A stretch of 64,000 nucleotides of DNA, taken from Natronococcus occultus SP4. Its GTDB lineage: Archaea; Halobacteriota; Halobacteria; Halobacteriales; Natrialbaceae. Where the stretch lies: contig NC_019974.1 of assembly GCF_000328685.1 (NCBI RefSeq), forward strand, positions 248,001 through 312,000, read 5' to 3'. The translations under genes and the position numbers were made by a program. Positions within the stretch are counted from its first letter, which is position 1. Each line of letters starts with the position of its first letter. Shown piece after piece: positions 3,539 through 15,568 of the stretch. The notes under the pieces are model-generated. The model ran no database searches and had not been told where the DNA came from. It was given only the letters and a program-made list of their open reading frames with translations.

Positions 3539-6535
3539 TTACGTCGAGGACGGTTCCGGAGCCTCCCCGTTCGTACCGAAAAACGCCGAGAGCAGACACC
3601 AGTTCCCCCGGCGGAGGTGCTGGTGGAGCGTCGACGAGGAGATCCCGATCGAGTCGGCCAGCTCCTCGGCGGTGATCTTCCGGGGCCAGTCGTAGTAGCC
3701 GGCGAAGTACGCCGACTCGAGAGCCGCGCGCTGTTTGTCGGTTAGCCGATCGCCGACCGACTCCCGGAACGTGTCCGCGGTCGTCACCGACCGCTCGCGT
3801 TCGCGTTTTGCGACCAGTTCGAGCCCGTCGAACTCGGCGTCGAACCGCGCGACGATCTCGCGGACGTCGGCGCTCTGGGGGGCCTCGAGGACGATCGTTC
3901 CCGCGCCGTCTTCCGCCACCGCCGAGCGAACCGCGGTTCCGGACGCGAGCGAGAGCTGGATCATCGAGTTCGACGTAACCGTCTGGAGAACGAACCCGTC
4001 ACTCCGTTCGGAGACCGCGCGGGCGCTCTCGATCCCGGCGGCGTCCTCGGCCGCCCCGAGGACGGCACCGGGATCGGCGCCCGACACCTCGTGGTAGAGC
4101 ATCACGCGACCGTTATCGAGGGGGATGGCGCGCTGAAACACACAGCGACAGTCGAGCTCGTCGCTGATCCGCACGTAGAAGACGCCCGGGTCGCGAAGCG
4201 TAAACTCGAGCTCGACGATCGAGTCAGCGAGCAGCAGCTCCCGGCTCTTGAGGGCGTTCTTCGCGAAGCCGACGATCCGACCGAGCGACTCGAAGCCCGC
4301 GATGGCGTCGTCGGTGAAGACGTCGTCGCGGACGCTGTTTATGACGAGGACGCCGACGGTTCGGTCGCCGTACAGAAGCGGGACGGCGGCGATCGCCTCG
4401 ACTTCTCGAGGTGGATCCCCGTCCGTCTCGGGATCGTCGGCGATCCGATACTGGCGGAGGACCCGAACCGTCCGAGCGTCGATCGCTCGCTCGACGATAC
4501 CGCCGGCGATCGCGCCGAGCCGGGTGCGAGTCACCGTCTCGAGATACCCCTCCTCGACGCCGGCGCCGACGGGCGAGCCGATCCGGTCGTCGACGCCCTC
4601 GACGCGGCCGATCCATGCGCTGCGGTAGAGATCCGACGCGACCAGCTGCTCGCAGACCATCCGATCGAGCTCCTCGCGAGTCGTCGCCGCGACCAGCCCC
4701 GTGACGAGCTCGTCGTTGACCGCGCCGATCCGGTTTAACGTCTCGAGCTGATCGCGTTGCTGGCGAAGCTCCCGCTCTTGCGTGCGAAGCAGCTGGGTCC
4801 GCTCGGCGCGGGTCAACGCCGCGCCGATCCCCATCGCCAGCATCTCGGTGAGATGGACGTCGCTTCCGGTAACGGTCTCGTCGCTCCGGGCCAACACCGT
4901 GAGCACGCCGCGGGGGCCGATCGGAACGTGGATGCTCGAGTGTTCGAACAGCGAGGACTCGTCCCGTTCGCGCTCGCCGATTACGTTCTGAACCGACTCC
5001 CGGTTCCTGAACGCGCGCCCGGCCAGCGTCGCCTCGAGGTCGTAGGCGGCTCGTCTCTCGAGCAGGGCCTCGGCGCCGTCGGTCATCGCGACGCACTCGA
5101 GCTGATTCGTCTCGGGTTCGAAGAGGCGGACACAGGCGATCTCGAACCCCAGCACGCCGTCGACGGCGTCAACGCCCGTTCGGGCGATCTCCGGCGCGGT
5201 CTCGACGCCCATCAGCTCGCGGGCGACCTCGTTGAGCGCCTCGAGGCGTCGCTCCCAGGATTTCCGTTCGGTGACGTCGCGAACGACACAGACGATCCCG
5301 TCCTCGAGCGCGGTCAGCGAGTGATCCTGATAGAACCGGGTGCCGTCGGCCCGCAGTCCGACGGCCTCGCCACGCCAGTGGCCCGCCTCCAGCACCGCCG
5401 GGATCGCCTCCCGTTCGAGGCGCTCGACCTCCGTCTCCGGGAACAGCGTTCGCCAGGACGAGCCGACGAGCTCGTCGGGATCGGCGTACCCGTGCAGGTC
5501 GGCGAGTGCGCGATTCACGTAGCGGAGCTCGCCGGACTCGTCGGAGATCCCCATCCCGTCGGTCGCCGACTCCATCGCCGCCGATCGGTGGCGGATCGCG
5601 TCCTCGGCGTCGAGGCGGTCGAGCGCGGCCTGAATCGTCGAGGCCAGGATGCCGACGAGGTTCCGAAGCGAGTCGTCGATCGTCTCGTCGTCTGTCGAGC
5701 CGACGGTCAGAAGCCCGACCGTTCCGATCGGAACGACGAGGCGCTCCTCGAGCCCGATCTCCGGATGGGCGGGCCGACCGACCGTCGGGTACGCCTCGAA
5801 CAGCCGAGCGACACCGTCCCGGAAGGCGTCCATCTCCACCGTCCCCGGTGAGATCGGCGCGATCCCCGCCGCGGCTCCGCCGTCGACGGTCGAAGAACGG
5901 ACCGATCGGCTCGCGGCCAGCGGCTCGAGCCGATCCGCCGCCGAATCGAGCAGCCAGACGGCGGCGTAGGACCGACCGAGGACGGTCTGGACGAGCTCGA
6001 CGGCGATCCGTCCGACGTCCTCGCGGCTCGTGGCCGCGTGAAGATTCCGACTCGCCTCGTAGAGCGCCTCGAGCCGGCTCTCGTCGCGCTCTGCTCGTGT
6101 TTCGGAGTCTATCCGTCGGTCGTCGATTTCGATGCGCGTGGCCGGTCGATCCCTTCGCCCCGACGGGTCGTCGGGATCGGTTCGAACGGCGACGGTGAGA
6201 TAGCGGTCACCGTCGACCTCGACCGTCGACACGGCCAGCTCGACCGGGACCGAGCGCCCGGTGTCGTGGACGAGCGAGCAGTCGATCGGATCGGTGTCGA
6301 ACGATGGCGCCCGCTCGAGGAGCGGACCGATCGGCGTCGCCTGCCCGTCGGGAAAGAGCCGATCGACCGGCTCACCGAGTAGCGCCTCGGTCCCGTAGCC
6401 GAGCAGCTCGGGGACGTGTGAACTCGTAAAGACGATCCTGCCCTCCGCGTCCAGGATCACGAACCCGTCGGTGACGGTTTCCACCACCTCCCTGAAGAGC
6501 GGATCGTCGGCTGGCGACGGGGTGTGTACGTTCAT
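3539..6535 (-). CDS. Bat-like PAS/GAF multi-sensor regulator with HTH-10 domain
   Basis: 998 residues in the bacterio-opsin-activator architecture. A PAS domain spans ~12-120 (DGFVILDAEGRIVFTSSHVPELLGY), GAF-like ~160-310, a second PAS ~320-430 with the typical HYSLT-type end and VRDVTERK linker, further GAF domains ~440-590 and ~610-760, the Bat-associated domain ~780-920, and C-terminal HTH-10 ~930-985 (LTDKQRAALESAYFAGYY). It should be a cytosolic DNA-binding regulator responding to redox, oxygen, light or a small ligand; the signal cannot be read from sequence. It lies divergent to the zinc-finger gene region. A second regulator of this class lies at 13010-15568. Confidence 0.88.
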   Translation of the reverse strand: MNVHTPSPADDPLFREVVETVTDGFVILDAEGRIVFTSSHVPELLGYGTEALLGEPVDRLFPDGQATPIGPLLERAPSFDTDPIDCSLVHDTGRSVPVELAVSTVEVDGDRYLTVAVRTDPDDPSGRRDRPATRIEIDDRRIDSETRAERDESRLEALYEASRNLHAATSREDVGRIAVELVQTVLGRSYAAVWLLDSAADRLEPLAASRSVRSSTVDGGAAAGIAPISPGTVEMDAFRDGVARLFEAYPTVGRPAHPEIGLEERLVVPIGTVGLLTVGSTDDETIDDSLRNLVGILASTIQAALDRLDAEDAIRHRSAAMESATDGMGISDESGELRYVNRALADLHGYADPDELVGSSWRTLFPETEVERLEREAIPAVLEAGHWRGEAVGLRADGTRFYQDHSLTALEDGIVCVVRDVTERKSWERRLEALNEVARELMGVETAPEIARTGVDAVDGVLGFEIACVRLFEPETNQLECVAMTDGAEALLERRAAYDLEATLAGRAFRNRESVQNVIGERERDESSLFEHSSIHVPIGPRGVLTVLARSDETVTGSDVHLTEMLAMGIGAALTRAERTQLLRTQERELRQQRDQLETLNRIGAVNDELVTGLVAATTREELDRMVCEQLVASDLYRSAWIGRVEGVDDRIGSPVGAGVEEGYLETVTRTRLGAIAGGIVERAIDARTVRVLRQYRIADDPETDGDPPREVEAIAAVPLLYGDRTVGVLVINSVRDDVFTDDAIAGFESLGRIVGFAKNALKSRELLLADSIVELEFTLRDPGVFYVRISDELDCRCVFQRAIPLDNGRVMLYHEVSGADPGAVLGAAEDAAGIESARAVSERSDGFVLQTVTSNSMIQLSLASGTAVRSAVAEDGAGTIVLEAPQSADVREIVARFDAEFDGLELVAKRERERSVTTADTFRESVGDRLTDKQRAALESAYFAGYYDWPRKITAEELADSIGISSSTLHQHLRRGNWCLLSAFFGTNGEAPEPSST

Positions 6536-6652: not shown

Positions 6653-7267
6653 TTACCGTTCGTCGTTCGTCTCGACGACGACGCGAACGTCGTCGCCGTC
6701 TTCGAGGACGTAGCGTTCGGGGTCGACCCGTTCGCCGTCGACGGTCGTCGAGACGGTCGTTCCGGGATCGTCCTCGCTGAACGTCTCGCCGTCGACGGCG
6801 AGGGAGTCAGCGGAGAGCTCGAACCCCAGCGTTCCCAGCGCGTACTCCAGGGTCACGTCCTCGCAGTGGACGTGCCAGCGTTCGGCGTCGTCGTAAGCGT
6901 GGAAGTGGAAACAGCCGTCCCGTTCGATGTACATCGGGTCGTCGAAGTCGACGACTGCCCCGTCGTACTCGAGGTGGATCGCTCCGTGGAGGTGGGTCGG
7001 AGCGTCCGGATCGGGCTGCTGGACCGCCGTCGTTTCGGGCGACGTGGCCGACGACAGCGCGAAGATCGCCAGGTACGCCGCAGCGAACAACACCAGCACG
7101 ACGCCGCCCAGTACGTACAGCTTGCGCGGGCGCGACCGTGACCCCGATCGGCGGGCCACGAGCCGTCGATCGAGCCCCTCGAGCTCGTCCTCGTGGGCGC
7201 GCTCGAGGTGGCCCGGATACTCCTCGTCGGGCACCGACCGACCGCAGTACGGACAGGTTCGCGTCAT
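6653..7267 (-). CDS. Membrane protein with N-terminal C2H2 zinc finger and His-rich outer domain
   Basis: 204 residues. Residues 4-25 form a C2H2 finger (CPYCGRSV, then HLERAH; spacing C-x2-C-x10-H-x4-H). A basic stretch follows (RSGSRSRPRK), one transmembrane helix at ~50-71 (LYVLGGVVLVLFAAAYLAI), then an acidic domain that begins His-rich (THLHGAIHLEY, HFHAYDD, WHVHCED). By the positive-inside rule the finger is cytosolic and the His-rich part faces outward. The His cluster suggests metal binding, but no named family was recognised. It ends ~115 bp from the start of the Bat-like gene and is transcribed in the same direction. Confidence 0.7.
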   Translation of the reverse strand: MTRTCPYCGRSVPDEEYPGHLERAHEDELEGLDRRLVARRSGSRSRPRKLYVLGGVVLVLFAAAYLAIFALSSATSPETTAVQQPDPDAPTHLHGAIHLEYDGAVVDFDDPMYIERDGCFHFHAYDDAERWHVHCEDVTLEYALGTLGFELSADSLAVDGETFSEDDPGTTVSTTVDGERVDPERYVLEDGDDVRVVVETNDER

Positions 7268-7555: not shown

Positions 7556-9439
7556 ATGATTCAGGAACTCAGCGTACTCACGGCCATCGGACTCATCGTC
7601 CTCGCCGGCGCGATCGGCGCGGGTAGCATCGTCGGCCCCGACGATCACGTCGTCGTCTACACGCTGGACGATGAGCGATGCGACGTGAGCGAACAAACGG
7701 ACGAAGTCATCGCGTCCGAGACCGACCTCGACGAGCGGGAAAGCGAGAGCCACAGCGACCGGGAGCGCGGTAATCTCGACCACAGCGAGAGCGATAGCGA
7801 GCGCGACCTGAGCGAGCGCGACAGCATCAGCGACAGCGAAAGCGACAGGGAGCGCTCCGAAAGCGAGCGCAGCGACCGCGACAGCGCGAGCGAGAGCGAC
7901 AGCGAGCGCGACCGGGTCGACTCCGAGCTGAACGATCGCGACGAACAGCGCGACAGTTCGAGCGAGCGCGACGTCAGCGAGATCGACGAGAGCGACAGCG
8001 ATCGTTCCGAACGGACGGTCGACGACACCGACGTCGAGAACGAACGGGACGACCGCGAGCACGAGCGCGACGCCAGCGACGCTTCCGTGAGCGAGCGCGA
8101 GAGCGACAGCACGCACAGCGAGCGCGACAGCCGCGACGGGGATAGCACGTACGACGAGGACGAGACGACTCAAAGCGAGTCCGACGAACGCGAGAACGCA
8201 AGCGAGAGCGACGCCTCGGAGTCCGAGCGCGACGCCAGTGAGAGCGACGTCGACGCCGACCGCGACGACCGCGAGGAGAGCGAGTCCGAGCGGGGCGACG
8301 CGAGCGAGCGCGAGGACGAACGGGCGTCGTCCGCGAGCGAAAGCGCGGAGAGTGAGCGCGACGCTAGTGAGGACGAATCGACCGAGAGCGACGCCGAGCG
8401 GGGCGAAAGCGAGCGCGACGAAAGCGAGAGCGCGTCTCAGGAGCGCGAGGAACACGAGCGCAGCGCCGAGACCGACGAGCGGGATCGGACCGACGGCGAC
8501 GACGACCACGAGCGCTTCGACCGCGCCGAGAGCGAGGACGTCGGCGACCGCACGGCTCGCGACACGATCGACCGCGAGGAGGCCGCGTCGGATCTCGAAG
8601 AGAGCGAGCACGAAACGGCGGAACGCACCGCCGACGAGAGCGAGCGCGACGAAAGCGACAGTGAGGAAACCGAGTCGGAGTCCGACCGGGAAGCCGAGGA
8701 AGGCACCGAACGGGACGCCGAGCACAGCGAATCTACCGATCGGGGCGCCGAGAGCGAACGTGACGTGAGCGAACGGGATGCCGACGAGAGCGAGTCCGAC
8801 CGCGAGAGCGCCGCCGCCGACAGTACGGAGAGCGATCGCAGCGTGAGCGAGACGGACAACGACTCCGCCGAGCGCGACCTCGAGACGACCGACAGTGAGG
8901 CCGAACGCGACGCGAGCGAGTCCGACGAGCGCGAGCACGCCAGCTCGAGCAGCGAGGCCGAGCGCGACGGCAGCACCGCCATCGACGAGCTCGACGAGAG
9001 CGAGCGCGACCGCAGCGAGGACGTCGCCTCCGAGCGCGAGTCCGACCGCGAGCGCGACGGCGGCACTGACGAGCGCTACCAGTCCGAGTCCGCCAGCGAC
9101 TCCGAGAGCGAACGGGACAGCGCTCACGACTCGAGCGACCGCGAGGAACGCGAGAGCGAACGGGACAGCGCCGCGGAGAGCGAGCGCGAAGAAAGCGAGC
9201 GCGACAGCGATCTCGACACGCGCGAGATCACCCGCACCGACAGCGACCGCGACACCGACTCGCGGACGTCACAGAGCGAGCGCGAGGACACGACTCGCGA
9301 ACAACAGTCCGACGAGGACTGCGAGACGGTCTCCGAACGCCTGCTCGTGACCGACGACAGCTACGACGAGCTGCGGGCCAAGGGAGCGATCGAGGAGAAC
9401 GACGACGGGACGTTCGACGTCGACGTCTCCAAGCTCTGA
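7556..9439 (+). CDS. Exported low-complexity Ser/Glu/Arg/Asp-repeat protein 1
   Basis: 627 residues from ATG 7556. Residues 6-28 are one hydrophobic helix (GLIVLAGAIGAGS), a signal anchor or uncleaved signal peptide. Residues ~50-580 are almost only Ser, Glu, Asp and Arg in SERD/SESERDASE-like units, predicted to be disordered. There are just two cysteines, C42 and one near residue 588, bracketing the repeat. The last ~40 residues look foldable (DDSYDELRAKGAIEEN). Ser is coded mostly by AGC, making the DNA a GAGCGCGACAGC-type repeat. It is paralogous to the next gene, sharing landmarks such as SELNDRDEQRDSSSER and DDTDVEN. Function unknown; a cell-surface polyelectrolyte is possible. Earlier in-frame starts lack the signal near the N-terminus and were rejected. 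Confidence 0.75.
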   Translation: MIQELSVLTAIGLIVLAGAIGAGSIVGPDDHVVVYTLDDERCDVSEQTDEVIASETDLDERESESHSDRERGNLDHSESDSERDLSERDSISDSESDRERSESERSDRDSASESDSERDRVDSELNDRDEQRDSSSERDVSEIDESDSDRSERTVDDTDVENERDDREHERDASDASVSERESDSTHSERDSRDGDSTYDEDETTQSESDERENASESDASESERDASESDVDADRDDREESESERGDASEREDERASSASESAESERDASEDESTESDAERGESERDESESASQEREEHERSAETDERDRTDGDDDHERFDRAESEDVGDRTARDTIDREEAASDLEESEHETAERTADESERDESDSEETESESDREAEEGTERDAEHSESTDRGAESERDVSERDADESESDRESAAADSTESDRSVSETDNDSAERDLETTDSEAERDASESDEREHASSSSEAERDGSTAIDELDESERDRSEDVASERESDRERDGGTDERYQSESASDSESERDSAHDSSDREERESERDSAAESEREESERDSDLDTREITRTDSDRDTDSRTSQSEREDTTREQQSDEDCETVSERLLVTDDSYDELRAKGAIEENDDGTFDVDVSKL

Positions 9440-11390
9440 ACTCCCGTCTCTGCGAACTCGTTTTTCGTCGGCAGCTCGCGATCGCTCGAGTGCGACCGCG
9501 CCGGTCCGATCCGAAACGGCGTCGATCGGTCCGATCCTTCGTCGCCCTTCGTCGCCGGTTTTTGTAGCCGTTGCGCGGACGTTCGGCTAGCCTAGTGGGC
9601 AACCCGTAGAACAGCTAGGTACACAGATGAGTCGAAAAATCATTGTTATCACAGTCGTCGGACTTCTCGTCCTGGCCGGTGCGATCGGTGCAGGTGGCGT
9701 CCTCGGCGGCGACGCCGACCCGGCCGCACTCAGCGTCCAGGATACCGACCGGTGTGATTCGAGCGAACACGACGAGGAGGACAGCAGCTCCGTCGACGAG
9801 GTCGACGAGAGCGAGAGTGACAGCGAGAGCGAGTCCGATCGCTCCAGTAGCGACGCGAGCGAGAGCGATAGTACGCGGGACGTCTCCGAGCGCGACAGCT
9901 CGAGCGACAGCGACAGCGAGCGCGAACTGAGCGACAGCGAGGAGAGCGACAGCGACAGTTCGAGCGACAGCTCGAGCGACAGCGAGGAGAGTGACTCCGA
10001 GCTGAACGACCGCGACGAGCAGCGCGACAGCTCGAGTGAGCGCGAGGAAAGCGAGATCGACGAGAGCGAGCGCGACGTCAGCGAGAACGAGATCGACGAC
10101 ACCGACGTCGAGAACGTCCAGGACGACCGCGACAGCGAGCGCGACGCCAGCGACGCCTCCGATAGCGAGAGCGAGAGCGAGAGCACGCACAGCGAGCGCG
10201 AGAGTTCCAACAACGACAGTAGCCTCGACGAAACGGAGGTCACGGCAAGCGACAGCGACGAACGCAGCAGCTCGAGCGACAGCGAGGAAAGCGAGAGCGA
10301 GCGCGACAGCTCCGACCGCGACGTCGACAACGACAGCCTCGACCGCGAGGAGAGCGAGCGCGACGCCAGCGACGAGAGCGACAGCGAGCGCGACAGCGCC
10401 TCGAGCTCCCTCGACAGTGAAGAGAGCGAGCGCGACGCCAGCGACAGCGAATCCACGGAACGCGACAGCTCGAGCGACGAGAGCGACTCCGAGCTGATCG
10501 AGAGCGACGAGAGCGAGTTCGAGGAAAGCGAGAGCGACGCCGAGCACGACGAACGCGACCTCGTCGAACGCAACGGCGCGGACCGTGACAGCTTTGACGT
10601 CATCGATAGCGAGAGCGACAGCGAGGAGAGCGAGTCCAGCTCGAGCGAGCGCGAGGAGAGCGCCAGCGACAGCGAGTCGACCGACAGCGAGTCGACCGAC
10701 GTCGCGAGCGACGAGAGCGAGCGCGAGGAAAGCGAACTCGACGACCGCGAGAGCGCAAGCGAGCTCGACAGCGCCGCCAGCGAGGAGAGCGAGCGCGAGG
10801 AAAGCGAGTCCAGCGATCAGGGCTCCGAGAGCGAATCCGACGAGAGCGAGCGCGACGCCAGCGAGAGCGCGAGCGAGCACGACAGCGCCGCGAGCAGCAG
10901 CGACGAGAGCGACCGCAGCGTGAGCGAGACGGACAACGACAACGCCGAGAGCGAACTCGAGACGTCCGACAGCGACGCCGACCGTGAATCGAGCGAATCC
11001 GACGAGAGCGAGCGCAGCAGCTCCAGTCTCACCACCGAGCGCGACGGCAGCACCCACACCGTCGACAACGATCTGAGCGAGAGCGACCGCAGCGAGAGCT
11101 CCGAGTCCGAACTCGACACCGAAAGCGAGAGCGACACCGGGCTCGACGAGATCGAACGCTCCAGCTCCGACAGCGAGCACAGCTCCGAAAGCGAGAGCGA
11201 CTCGAGCGCCAGCGACCGGACCGAAAGCGAGAGCGACTCCGAGAGCGACTCCGAGAGCGAGCTCGATGAAAGCGAGAGCGATTCCGAGAGCGACGAGAGC
11301 GAGACCACCAGAAGCAGCAGCGACGTCGATAGCGACCGCGAGAGTTCCCAGTCGACGACCGAGGAGTCGAGCTCCTCCTCGAGCTCCGAG
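7700..11390 (+). repeat. Coding hexanucleotide-type repeats of the two Ser/Asp/Glu/Arg genes
   Basis: The DNA is built from in-frame GAGAGC, GAGCGC, GACAGC and GACGAG blocks in irregular order across both genes, interrupted only at 9310-9780 by the unique end of gene 1, the spacer and the unique start of gene 2. The repeats are imperfect, so divergence has followed expansion. Such DNA is prone to slippage and recombination between the two genes. Confidence 0.8.
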
Positions 11391-11483
11391 GACGACTGTG
11401 ACACCTTCGGCACGGGTCTCAACTCCACGATGCTCCCGGCGACGGGTACCGTGGCGACGCTCGCGGCTGTCGAAGCGAACTGA
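9627..11483 (+). CDS. Exported low-complexity Ser/Asp/Glu-repeat protein 2
   Basis: 618 residues, tandem paralogue of the preceding gene. Residues 5-28 form the same hydrophobic helix (VGLLVLAGAIGAGG). The repeat region (~50-585) is richer in Ser, Asp and Glu and poorer in Arg, so it should be far more negative. Again only two cysteines are present, C43 and one near residue 591. The tail (STMLPATGTVATLAAVEAN) is mildly hydrophobic. Shared blocks with protein 1 (SELNDRDEQRDSSSER, RDASDAS, STHSER, DRSVSETDND) show duplication followed by drift in charge. I infer an extracellular, intrinsically disordered protein, perhaps closed or cross-linked through its end cysteines. Long antisense frames here are side-effects of the repeat. 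Confidence 0.75.
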   Translation: MSRKIIVITVVGLLVLAGAIGAGGVLGGDADPAALSVQDTDRCDSSEHDEEDSSSVDEVDESESDSESESDRSSSDASESDSTRDVSERDSSSDSDSERELSDSEESDSDSSSDSSSDSEESDSELNDRDEQRDSSSEREESEIDESERDVSENEIDDTDVENVQDDRDSERDASDASDSESESESTHSERESSNNDSSLDETEVTASDSDERSSSSDSEESESERDSSDRDVDNDSLDREESERDASDESDSERDSASSSLDSEESERDASDSESTERDSSSDESDSELIESDESEFEESESDAEHDERDLVERNGADRDSFDVIDSESDSEESESSSSEREESASDSESTDSESTDVASDESEREESELDDRESASELDSAASEESEREESESSDQGSESESDESERDASESASEHDSAASSSDESDRSVSETDNDNAESELETSDSDADRESSESDESERSSSSLTTERDGSTHTVDNDLSESDRSESSESELDTESESDTGLDEIERSSSDSEHSSESESDSSASDRTESESDSESDSESELDESESDSESDESETTRSSSDVDSDRESSQSTTEESSSSSSSEDDCDTFGTGLNSTMLPATGTVATLAAVEAN

Positions 11484-11645: not shown

Positions 11646-12710
11646 ATGAAACGACGGACGTTCGTCGGCGTCGCCGGTATGGGAGTCCTCGGGGTCGCGG
11701 GCTGTACCCACAGCAGGACGGAGCCGGAGGCCGACGGAAGCGAGGACGGCTCGACCGCGAGCGAGCCCAGCGGCGCGGACGACGGCGGTGACGAGAACGG
11801 CGCCGATGACGACGGTAACGAGGACGCGGCGGACAAAGCGTCCGAGACGATCGCCGTCGGCGAACTCGTCGGCGACGAGCTGGAGTTCGTCGTCAGCGAC
11901 GTCGATCGACGACGCTCGTTCGCGGGGCTCGTCCCCGAAGACGACGGCTCCCTCCACGACGACGACGAACGCGGCCAGGCGAGCGCGGACGCGGCGTTCG
12001 TGGTCGTCGAGTTCGCCGTCAGGAACGCCAGCGACGAGTTCGTGTCGACGGCCGACGTCCTTGAACCGGTACTCGAGGACGACGCCGAACGCACGCACTC
12101 CGGGGTTCGCTCGGTCAGCGAGCAGATGCTCGCGGACGGCGTCCTCGCTCCCGGAGAGGTCGAGCGCGGGGAAGTTGCCTACGAGCTATCCCGGGACCGG
12201 TCGGGCTCGTCGCTAACCCTCGAGGCCGGAGCGACGGCACTCGGCGAGGACCTCGTCGTCGACCTCGAGCGCGAGGCCGACGAGGTCGCGACACTCGAAC
12301 AGGAGCTCCGAGTCCCGATCCGTGAGTTCGGGGCCGCGATCGAGCGCGACGGGCTCGATATCGGCGTCGATCGGCTGGGGACGGGCAACGATCTCGGCTC
12401 GTTCTTCGAGCCCGAGCCGGACCACGAGTACGTCGTCGTCGGGCTCACCGTGACTAACGAGGCCGGTGAAGACAGGGAGTTCTCGCTCGGCGACCGCAGC
12501 CGGCTGAAGGACGGCGTCGGCCGGAGCTATCCGGCGGACCCCGACGCGCTGTCGTCGCTCGAACGGTTCGACGACTCGGTGTCGCTCGCGGACGGCGATC
12601 GGTACGAGGGGTCGATCGCCTACCACGTCGAGCGCGATCGGGAGGAGCTGTACTGGTTGCTCGAGCCGCCGTCGTGGACGGACGAGAAGGAGTTCTGGCG
12701 GATTCGGTAG
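11646..12710 (+). CDS. Tat-type lipoprotein with DUF4352-like domains
   Basis: 354 residues. The N-terminus MKRRTFVGVAGMGVLGVAGC is a twin-arginine signal with a lipobox (VAGC, Cys 20). An Asp/Glu/Gly/Ser linker follows (residues ~25-65), typical of haloarchaeal lipoproteins. Two beta-rich domains of the DUF4352 type follow: ~75-215 (FVVVEFAVRNASDEF) and ~225-350 (YVVVGLTVTNEAGEDREF, closing on the WLLEPPSW segment). It is anchored outside the membrane; DUF4352 proteins are usually accessory, ligand or adhesion proteins of unknown role. It is codirectional with the two low-complexity genes, 162 bp downstream, so a shared surface function is possible. Confidence 0.82.
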   Translation: MKRRTFVGVAGMGVLGVAGCTHSRTEPEADGSEDGSTASEPSGADDGGDENGADDDGNEDAADKASETIAVGELVGDELEFVVSDVDRRRSFAGLVPEDDGSLHDDDERGQASADAAFVVVEFAVRNASDEFVSTADVLEPVLEDDAERTHSGVRSVSEQMLADGVLAPGEVERGEVAYELSRDRSGSSLTLEAGATALGEDLVVDLEREADEVATLEQELRVPIREFGAAIERDGLDIGVDRLGTGNDLGSFFEPEPDHEYVVVGLTVTNEAGEDREFSLGDRSRLKDGVGRSYPADPDALSSLERFDDSVSLADGDRYEGSIAYHVERDREELYWLLEPPSWTDEKEFWRIR

Positions 12711-13009: not shown

Positions 13010-15568
13010 CTACGTGGTGGAACCTTCCCCACCCGACGCCCTTCGGTACCCGTGGGCAAACAGGATCGCCAGGAGCTTTCGCTGTGCGGCATGGAGGTGG
13101 TGGTTGAACGTCGGCTGGGCGATATCGAGCATAGCCGCGACCTCGACCCCGCTGCTCTCGCGGGGGGTCTCGAAGTAGCCGCTGGCGTAGGCGGTTCGCA
13201 GGACCTCGTACTGGCGGTCGGTGAGTTGTTGCTCGACCGCAACGAGGAACTCGAACCGCGTCCGCGGTCGCCGGTCGCCGTGTTGGCGACGGACGAGCGT
13301 CGCCCCGGGATAGGTCGTGGTGATTCCGTCGACGAGCCGCCGGACGTCCGCGTCACCCGGGAGCTCGACGACGAGGGTCGCGCCGTCCGGATCGCTCTCC
13401 AGCGACCGAGCGACGGCACCGTACTCGAGCAGCCGCGAGACGATGCTGTCGGGCGTGAACAGACACGCGAACAACCCCGTCCCGTCGCGCTCGGTGACGA
13501 ACGTCGTCCCGTTTGTCTCGGGCGCCCGACTCGCGAGCTCGAGGACTCGATCGACGGCAACCCCCTCGACCGTGAACAGCCCGCGGATCGAGCCGTCGCT
13601 GCGCGCGAAGGCGCCCTCGAGAGCGATCCGGCCGTCGGTCGCGGCGGCCCACCGGACGAACGACGGCTCCGTCCCGCGGAGCCGAAACTCCAGTTCGACG
13701 ATCTCGGTCGTCTCGAGCTGTGCGTGCGCGAGTTCGAGCGTGTGGAGCGCGCGTCCGAGACGGTTGCCGATCGCCGCCAGCGCACGACGCTCGGCAGCGC
13801 CGAACGCGTCGTGTCGGTCGGCGTAGACCGTCAGCCCGCCATACTGGAGTGCATCGGAGTCGATGGGAACGCTTACCACCGACCGATAGCCGCGTCTGGC
13901 AGCCTCGCGGCGCCACCGTCCGGGACGGTCGTCCGAGAGCAGGCGCTCGAGGCTCTGTGGGGCTCCCGTCCGGACCGCGGCAGCCGTCGGCTCCTGGTCG
14001 TCGGTCGGCGCCGTCAGGTCGATCGCGACGCTGTTGAGGTAGCTGCGTTCGGCGCCCGCCCACGCGCGTGGCTCGATCGTTTCTCCGACCTCGTCGTACG
14101 CGCCGAGCCAGGCGAACGTGATCCGCTCGTGGCCGACCAGACGATCACACGTCATCGTCTCGAGGTCGGCCCGCGAGCCAGCCGCGTCGATCGCGCTATC
14201 GATCCGTCGGTCGAGGTCCGCGAGCGCTTCGAGGCGATCGAGTCGGACTGCCTGCGCGTCGATCGCCTCGTCACGGACTGTCAGTCGCCGCTCGCGCTCG
14301 CGGCGATCCAGCGCCGTGCGAACGAGCGCTGCGGCGACTGTGAGCTCCCCATCCGCACGCGCGGGCCGTCCGTCGATCGCGGCGAGGACGGCCCCGTGCT
14401 CTCCCAGCGGGAAGACGACGCCGCGAGCGTCGCCCGTCGAACCCGCTGCCGACGGCTCCGGACCCAGCTCCGCGACGGATGTCGCCTCTCGATCGACGAA
14501 CGCCTGCCAGATCGCTCCCGCCTCGAGCGTTGGCGCCGGCTCCGGGCCGTCCCGGTCGCCGAACGTGCCGGCCCGAGCGGTACGCCGGAGCGCGTCCTCG
14601 TGGTCGTCGTACAGGTAGATCGCCGCGGCCGCGACCCCTTCGAGATCGGCGACGACGTCGACGGCTCGCCGGGACGCCTCCCGGATCGTCCCGGCGTCCT
14701 GGAGTGTTTCGGAGAGCGCTCGAAGGCCGCGACACGACGTCCTCGGTCGGTCGTGATCGTCGCCGATCCCGCGCTGGCGGCGGAGAGTTCGTTCGAGCGG
14801 GGCTGTTCGTCGGTCGGTGCCAGTGAGATCGAGCAGACGACATAGATACGTCCCCGGTTCGACTGCGGTCACCGACCGCTGGACCGGGACGAGCCGCCCG
14901 TTGGCCCGCTCGCCGAGCGCGTCGTCGACCGCCGAGCCGCGGCGCCTGACGGTCTCGCGTACCGCGTCGGTCGCCCCGGTGCCGCGATCGGTCGGGAACA
15001 GCTTTGCCCACCGCTTGCCGACCAGCGCGTCCGGCTCCGTCCCGTAGAGGTCAGCGAACAGCTCGCTGGCGTCGATTGCGCGCAGATCGCCGTCGAACAG
15101 ACAGCTCCCGCCCGCGGTCGGAAGCGCGTCCTCGGCGTCCTCGTCGATCGGGACGATACCGGACCCAGTCCCGTCGACGATCGACACGAGACGGGACGTG
15201 AGTTGCTCGATGTTCTCACCGTCGGCCTTTCGGAGGACGTCGGTCGCCCCCGCAGCTCGCGCCCGCCGAACGAGTTCGCGTCGCGGCGAGCGAGCGAGTA
15301 CCACGGTCGGAATCTCGGGCCATCGGTTCCTCACTGCCTCGAGAAGCTCGACGCCGTCCCGTCCCGGGAGCTCGGCGTCAGTTACGAGACAGTCGAACTC
15401 GCCGTCGGCAAGTCGTCCGAGCGCGTCGCTCGCCCGGGTCACCGTCGTCACCGTGATCTCCTGGGTCGCCTCGAGCGCGTCCGCTGTCGCAGCGGCCGTC
15501 TCGCGATCCGGATCGACGTAGAGTATCCGGACGCGTCGGCTCGACTGCGGGCTCGTGTGCGGTACCAT
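13010..15568 (-). CDS. Bat-like regulator with response-regulator receiver, PAS, GAF and HTH-10 domains
   Basis: 852 residues. An N-terminal receiver domain spans ~12-125, with acidic residues in ILYVDPDRE, the probable phospho-acceptor Asp in CLVTDAELPGRDG, and the conserved Lys in LRKADGE. PAS ~150-245, GAF ~290-420, GAF ~440-600, the Bat-associated domain ~630-775 and HTH-10 ~785-840 (LTDRQYEVLRTAYASGYFETP) follow. It combines two-component input with ligand or redox sensing and should be a cytosolic transcription regulator. No histidine kinase gene is adjacent. Together with 3539-6535 it flanks the low-complexity surface genes, so control of that locus is possible but unproven. Confidence 0.87.
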   Translation of the reverse strand: MVPHTSPQSSRRVRILYVDPDRETAAATADALEATQEITVTTVTRASDALGRLADGEFDCLVTDAELPGRDGVELLEAVRNRWPEIPTVVLARSPRRELVRRARAAGATDVLRKADGENIEQLTSRLVSIVDGTGSGIVPIDEDAEDALPTAGGSCLFDGDLRAIDASELFADLYGTEPDALVGKRWAKLFPTDRGTGATDAVRETVRRRGSAVDDALGERANGRLVPVQRSVTAVEPGTYLCRLLDLTGTDRRTAPLERTLRRQRGIGDDHDRPRTSCRGLRALSETLQDAGTIREASRRAVDVVADLEGVAAAAIYLYDDHEDALRRTARAGTFGDRDGPEPAPTLEAGAIWQAFVDREATSVAELGPEPSAAGSTGDARGVVFPLGEHGAVLAAIDGRPARADGELTVAAALVRTALDRRERERRLTVRDEAIDAQAVRLDRLEALADLDRRIDSAIDAAGSRADLETMTCDRLVGHERITFAWLGAYDEVGETIEPRAWAGAERSYLNSVAIDLTAPTDDQEPTAAAVRTGAPQSLERLLSDDRPGRWRREAARRGYRSVVSVPIDSDALQYGGLTVYADRHDAFGAAERRALAAIGNRLGRALHTLELAHAQLETTEIVELEFRLRGTEPSFVRWAAATDGRIALEGAFARSDGSIRGLFTVEGVAVDRVLELASRAPETNGTTFVTERDGTGLFACLFTPDSIVSRLLEYGAVARSLESDPDGATLVVELPGDADVRRLVDGITTTYPGATLVRRQHGDRRPRTRFEFLVAVEQQLTDRQYEVLRTAYASGYFETPRESSGVEVAAMLDIAQPTFNHHLHAAQRKLLAILFAHGYRRASGGEGSTT

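Follow-up and report, generated by a model that had tools for sequence, protein, structure and literature searches.

Two neighbouring genes in a haloarchaeal chromosome encode proteins composed largely of serine, aspartate, glutamate and arginine, and they raise the question of what kind of structure, if any, such chains could build. The genes lie in the window analysed here, a 64-kb stretch of the chromosome of Natronococcus occultus SP4 (genome G000, contig of 4,013,216 bases), and their products are termed type A (P0001) and type B (P0002). Acidic sequence of low complexity would normally be expected to lengthen and shorten freely; yet in B, known from seven genera of two haloarchaeal families, the length has been preserved, with no proline in the body and with strong purifying selection on it. 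One possibility is that a polyanion without a hydrophobic core takes up an ordered form in concentrated salt; the other is that its length is gauged by something outside the protein. The reading that we favour, tentatively and at a little less than an even chance, is that A and B together form a disulfide-clamped, polyanionic surface assembly that is tethered to the membrane via a third, linked protein (ZnTM) and probably retains water and cations.

The A and B genes and their family

Both open reading frames (ORFs) sit where the first-pass annotation had placed them, and their parts are as follows.

7556..9439, + strand: type A protein (P0001, 627 aa), with a hydrophobic N-terminal segment, Cys42, a Ser/Asp/Glu/Arg body, Cys589 and a C-terminal mini-domain
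7679..7681, + strand: Cys42 codon, the invariant first cysteine of A
9320..9322, + strand: Cys589 codon, the invariant second cysteine of A
9320..9436, + strand: C-terminal mini-domain of A, about 39 aa from Cys589, the sole fairly confident part of the AlphaFold2 prediction (block means of 64-81 in predicted local distance difference test, pLDDT)
9627..11483, + strand: type B protein (P0002, 618 aa), with a hydrophobic N-terminal segment, Cys43, a Ser-rich acidic body, Cys591 and a short variable tail
9753..9755, + strand: Cys43 codon, the invariant first cysteine of B
11397..11399, + strand: Cys591 codon, the invariant second cysteine of B

Each protein holds exactly two cysteines, at 42 and 589 in A and at 43 and 591 in B; the end cysteines had been recognized at first reading, and it is only their positions, given as 42/43 and about 588/591, that are corrected here. 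The two genes are tandem paralogues of common descent, as had been proposed: the conserved islands singled out earlier occur in both proteins and align with each other, and the bodies are 53% identical across 546 aligned positions. Ser, Asp, Glu and Arg make up 75.5% of the body in A and 81.4% in B, which is dominant, though the earlier wording "almost entirely" was a bit too strong. Likewise, the N-terminal helices resemble each other but fall short of near-identity. Asp and Glu account for 41-42% of the body in this pair. The net charge is -158 for A and -190 for B, contrary to the view that A balances arginine against acidic residues. A charge-driven phase separation of A with B, which had also been suggested, loses its ground, since both proteins are strongly acidic and acid columns align with acid columns (196 in the window pair, against 7 acid-Arg columns).

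Single-protein searches followed by alignment searches gave hits to 19 of 125 Natrialbaceae genomes; 17 of these carry intact members and two carry remnants. Outside the Natrialbaceae, with 392 genomes drawn from the order, an A/B pair was found in one genome of another haloarchaeal family (G415), which is the sole carrier among the 146 genomes searched of its family. The working set (alignment A5) comprises 38 intact proteins, 16 of type A and 22 of type B; the remnants in G055 and G100 were dropped before counting. Their sizes range from 616 to 665 aa, except for A of G080 (586) and A of G415 (611). Both cysteines are kept in 38 of the 38, and 23 columns are invariant across these sequences. 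Every intact member opens with a hydrophobic segment, which agrees with the export predicted by the first-pass annotation; homologues lacking the end cysteines or the signal helix, which it had asked to be looked for, are absent from the set.

P0001 and P0002 match zero families in Pfam (E 1), NCBIfam (E 1) and PHROGs (E 0.01), and the family profile gave zero matches to PDB sequences at E 1. The plasmid search returned relatives only in Natronorubrum bangense, whose copies are carried by an 827-kb plasmid under the label "hypothetical protein", and the viral contigs searched held no relative. A candidate in G228 was rejected as a chance match of the signal peptide only to an unrelated protein. 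A description of the family was not found in the open-licence papers searched, and we know of no other polyanion that is locked in length, free of proline, ended by cysteines and associated with a dedicated partner. The earlier impression of an undescribed haloarchaeal family is borne out.

The mini-domain distinguishes A. In the 14 other alignment members it is 67-97% identical to the window copy, and its profile matched 11 of the 392 genomes of the order, once each and every time at the A gene. A weak SLH match is seen in four of 15 members (best E 0.0061), and the two matches printed score 16.6 and 17.0 bits against a Pfam cutoff of 20.8, which does not place the mini-domain in SLH.

Length, proline and charge pattern of the body

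The two cysteines of B are 548 residues apart in 21 of 22 members, from seven genera and from both families, that of G415 included; the sole exception, with a spacing of 536, carries a single 12-residue deletion. FastTree estimates set about 2,170 substitutions in B against this one deletion. The segments of B outside the cysteines vary, with 33-42 residues before and 26-77 after. In A, for which about 2,070 substitutions are estimated, the spacing is 546-547 in nine of 16 members and otherwise 541-551, with outliers at 529 and 504, and several gap blocks occur, mostly near core columns 257-313.

Proline is found at none of the 20,727 body residues of the 38 members. Elsewhere in the family it occupies 19 of 1,506 tail residues and 16 of 1,523 residues before the first cysteine, and it makes up 4.0% of 15 control ORFs. 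The codons of Ser (TCN), Ala, Thr and Arg (CGN) are a single step from proline codons, yet proline in the body is nil. The fixed length and the missing proline argue against a plain floppy coat.

The acidic residues are evenly spread. The variance of their count is 0.40-0.48 of the random value in windows of 5 to 20 residues (0.41 at 10 and 0.40 at 20), and neighbouring acids are two residues apart in 47% of cases (24% after shuffling) and adjacent in 16% (39% after shuffling). Arginine mostly follows an acid, with Ser-Arg observed 36 times for 490 expected and Arg-Arg 0 times for 165 expected, so that the local grammar reads acid-x-acid with almost no Ser-Arg, Glu-Asp or Arg-Arg. With regard to a regular repeat like that of pentapeptide-repeat or beta-solenoid proteins, in which hydrophobic or small residues point inward, the acid autocorrelation at 12, 13 and 14 residues is 0.14, -0.16 and 0.17, above Markov controls, with no single repeat unit and no model; the sequences averaged (22 of 38) are related, and its significance is weaker than their number implies. 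A simple tandem repeat was rejected, as profile self-comparison shows no single unit but only the local grammar and the weak 12-14 order. A helical pitch was considered for a spectral line at about 2.36 residues and discarded; the line falls at about the inverse of the acid density (0.41-0.42) and was read as even spacing.

The ratio of nonsynonymous to synonymous substitution rates (dN/dS) is 0.11-0.30 in nine of nine orthologue pairs tested, which shows purifying selection, with D/E exchanges dominant. Both AGY and TCN codons are used at eight of 20 near-invariant Ser columns. The dN/dS values, this switching between Ser codon families and the conservation across genera rule out an artefact of GC-rich composition or of long antisense ORFs. 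Judged by its sequence pattern, the body is unlike ordinary disordered or low-complexity sequence.

The A and B bodies have also changed in step. Their identity is 0.503 within a genus and 0.407 between genera, and this within-genus excess of 0.096 compares with 0.006 +/- 0.005 when B is moved out of register with A, a comparison from which 5 of 550 columns were excluded for their many gaps. In six of seven genera, though by a narrow margin in g7, the excess is larger than in any of the shifted controls, while the tails show almost no such effect (0.14 vs 0.12). Lock-step change of this kind can arise from co-evolution or from gene conversion.

A linked membrane protein with its own cysteine pair

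The gene next to A encodes a candidate partner of the pair.

6653..7267, - strand: ZnTM, with a CxxC..H..H zinc-finger-like N-terminal motif, one membrane helix and an exported domain with CFHFH..WHxHC

Basic residues precede the membrane helix. Strong orthologues, scoring 290-390 bits where the next match reaches 164, are present in 16 of the 125 Natrialbaceae genomes and in no others of these, and all 16 have intact A/B members. Of the 17 genomes that hold intact members, 16 thus have ZnTM, and of the 108 that do not, 0; the Fisher p of 2.7e-19 for this split is too small, as the bit threshold was set after the score gap had been seen and the genomes are related. ZnTM immediately adjoins A in 16 of 16 A loci. 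The pattern CFHFH...WHxHC is present in the exported domain of 17 of 17 cluster copies, that of G415 included, whereas cysteine is missing from both positions in 16 of 16 distant homologues fetched, which are a part of the weaker matches and include three from genomes that also carry the family. Plasmids of other haloarchaea encode ZnTM-related proteins with the annotation "hypothetical" or, once, MoaD/ThiS family. In G129, a second zinc-finger/membrane protein, with a terminal DsbA domain (CPFC; Thioredoxin_4, E 3.3e-23), lies between two B genes (L052:7848-8681, minus strand), which counts in favour of the assembly proposed below; its DsbA part, considered for a possible DsbA-type oxidative folding system, has no other match among the neighbouring ORFs. 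Disulfides are expected mainly because the partner has a dedicated exported cysteine pair, the conserved cysteines of A and B being the two end ones only. The fixed length, the missing proline, the lock-step change and this partner all go beyond the first reading.

Proposed assembly and alternatives

In the arrangement that we favour, A and B would be exported structural subunits of an extracellular assembly. Each chain would present an evenly spaced, proline-free polyanion of about 548 residues with both ends fixed by cysteines, and the bodies would lie in register with each other or with their own copies, such that insertion, deletion and proline are not tolerated. The end cysteines would form disulfides, either closing a loop within a chain or cross-linking chains at both ends, and ZnTM, with its matching exported cysteine pair, would tether or assemble A and B. 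The assembly would most likely be a hydrated, cation-holding coat of the cell surface, which in a soda brine could retain water along with divalent cations, scarce in such a setting. Export to the surface, the disulfides, contacts among A, B and ZnTM and a regular structure of the chains are inferred, and the ion- and water-holding role is proposed by analogy.

The first-pass annotation had pictured instead an unstructured polyelectrolyte coat of disordered, hydrated chains with fixed ends, in which only charge matters. The composition and the AlphaFold2 confidence are typical of disorder, substitutions are mainly D/E exchanges and the acids are well mixed; such a coat leaves unaccounted for a B body nearly free of indels between variable flanks, the complete lack of proline, the position-specific conservation and the low dN/dS, and we consider it quite unlikely. 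A closed loop, in which a Cys1-Cys2 bond forms within the chain, the strand before Cys1 in A pairs with the mini-domain, and the body loops out from ends held at the membrane, suits the cysteine near each end of every member and the identity of the pre-Cys1 segment (72%) and tail (73%) of A between genera. It needs neither a fixed length nor an A/B length match, and the tail of B is unconserved (0.24 between genera). Of the strands that a first AlphaFold2 run placed at residues 32-37 and 594-599 of A, that at 32-37 is absent from a second, deeper run; the pairing of the N- and C-terminal strands was rejected as a finding and kept only within this alternative. The loop is an unlikely account; packing of the bodies in register explains the length lock better than a freely looping chain does.

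A greater challenge comes from gene conversion between neighbouring copies, which would passively yield lock-step change and equal length with no contact of A and B. The genes are usually neighbours, the codons of A and B agree more often than expected where their residues match (0.74 vs 0.62), and Natronococcus and G415 show the lock-step most strongly. Conversion has not been recent, since A and B of Natronococcus are just 55% identical, and it leaves the missing B indels and the missing proline unexplained in lineages with little A-B similarity (g41); we regard it as a serious though doubtful explanation of the lock-step. An interface with minerals, in which the alternation of acids and Ser would template crystals of salt or carbonate on the cell surface or inhibit them, is very unlikely. 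Asp-Ser alternation is the classic model for shell proteins, an acid-acid spacing of two occurs at twice the shuffled rate (0.47 vs 0.24), and the named carrier Natronorubrum bangense is an alkaline-lake isolate; against this, no gene of the neighbourhood points to mineral handling.

Several observations count against the disulfide-clamped, ZnTM-held assembly. The codon identity noted above fits gene conversion, and genus g41 shows no lock-step excess beyond the shifted controls. The body of A tolerates changes of length (504 and 529 in two members). The two genes are not in tandem everywhere: in G005 they lie far from each other, in G002 they fall on different contigs, and in G003, G001 and G070 kilobases separate them. 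G125 has B and ZnTM and lacks A, ZnTM there immediately adjoining B, and G006, a draft of 220 contigs, has B but no ZnTM. The DsbA fusion of G129 stands as a single case. AlphaFold2 produced no model of the body from either 14 or 38 sequences (block means of 30-43 pLDDT). Order in the body is thus deduced from evolution only, because AlphaFold2 yields no body structure, and the missing model does not prove disorder. A structure comparison with the PDB gave no match with Z of at least 2, which is uninformative given the low-confidence model.

In a more specific form of the proposed assembly, A and B would build a regular rod or paired strand, polyanionic, free of proline and set in length by the genes; disulfides would cross-link its two ends and ZnTM would anchor it. 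A low-complexity sequence with no core would then be structured at saturating salt. We hold this form to be quite unlikely as it stands. Such a rod would perhaps be a beta-type coil with the 12-14-residue order, stabilised by salt and cations and not by a hydrophobic core. Whether the chain is ordered in salt or measured from outside can be tested in the named carriers Natronorubrum bangense and Natronococcus amylolyticus, and the strictly linked ZnTM offers a genetic handle on the system. The answer bears on protein order without a hydrophobic core and on how archaeal envelopes are built in brines.

Other genes and observations at the locus

Three further genes of the window flank the cluster.

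3539..6535, - strand: PAS/GAF/BAT/HTH_10 regulator, with homologues that recur near the family
11646..12710, + strand: DUF4352 lipoprotein-like protein (Pfam E 1.4e-17), with homologues that recur near the family in other loci, that of G415 included
13010..15568, - strand: second BAT/HTH_10 regulator, with a response-regulator domain

Haloarchaea commonly carry BAT regulators. A small conserved protein near the cluster (L063:5814-6092 and equivalents), which begins MTSHIKLYGSKSDRFEEIK, was matched in 12 other genomes, and the same scan did not find it in the window locus; it gives the impression of perhaps being a small DNA-binding regulator. Acidic low-complexity, lipoprotein-like proteins lie beside the cluster in two genomes (L053:6157-6798 and L052:14354-15262). 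Of the two genomes with remnants, G055 has a decayed A gene (L061:9300-9962) and G100 a shrunken B-like ORF (L062:9212-9691), and neither has a strong ZnTM orthologue. At the far end of the window, between 59000 and 64000, the G+C content drops from about 65% to 39-50%, which suggests an inserted or foreign element.

Comparison with known systems

The staphylococcal Sdr and clumping-factor proteins are exported and Ser-Asp-rich, with SD repeats of variable length on a folded adhesin. In contrast, A and B have a mixed Ser/Asp/Glu/Arg body of fixed length and no Pfam domain.

Among haloarchaea, there is a likeness to halomucin of Haloquadratum walsbyi, an exported protein thought to form a water-rich coat, with 9,159 aa, or 7,836 aa in another strain, and lectin-type domains in one strain (PMC4378361). 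A and B do not belong to a halomucin-like class, being small (about 620 aa), without a Pfam domain and, in B, fixed in body length; they also come as a pair of locked length, keep their end cysteines invariant and are accompanied by a linked membrane protein. Natronococcus occultus itself has an unusual surface polymer, a polyglutamine of the cell wall that is glycosylated and built of about 60 gamma-linked monomers (PMC4243693), whereas A and B are genome-encoded polypeptides, rich in Ser, Asp, Glu and Arg and poor in Gln.

Alkaliphilic Bacillaceae carry acidic secondary wall polymers (teichuronopeptide, polyglutamate and SlaA) that have been proposed to repel hydroxide and to retain metals (PMC12457358). 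They resemble A and B as surface polyanions, the location of A and B being predicted from the hydrophobic N-terminal segment and the composition; they have no known homology to A and B, and the sections available of that source report no length lock or cysteine clamp. AGARP, likewise an extreme protein polyanion and compared here by description and not by homology, is an acid-rich disordered protein that divalent cations compact, with no secondary structure on compaction (PMC12557392). As a functional kind, acidic surface polymers have precedents, and by these comparisons the combination of traits in A and B appears to be new.

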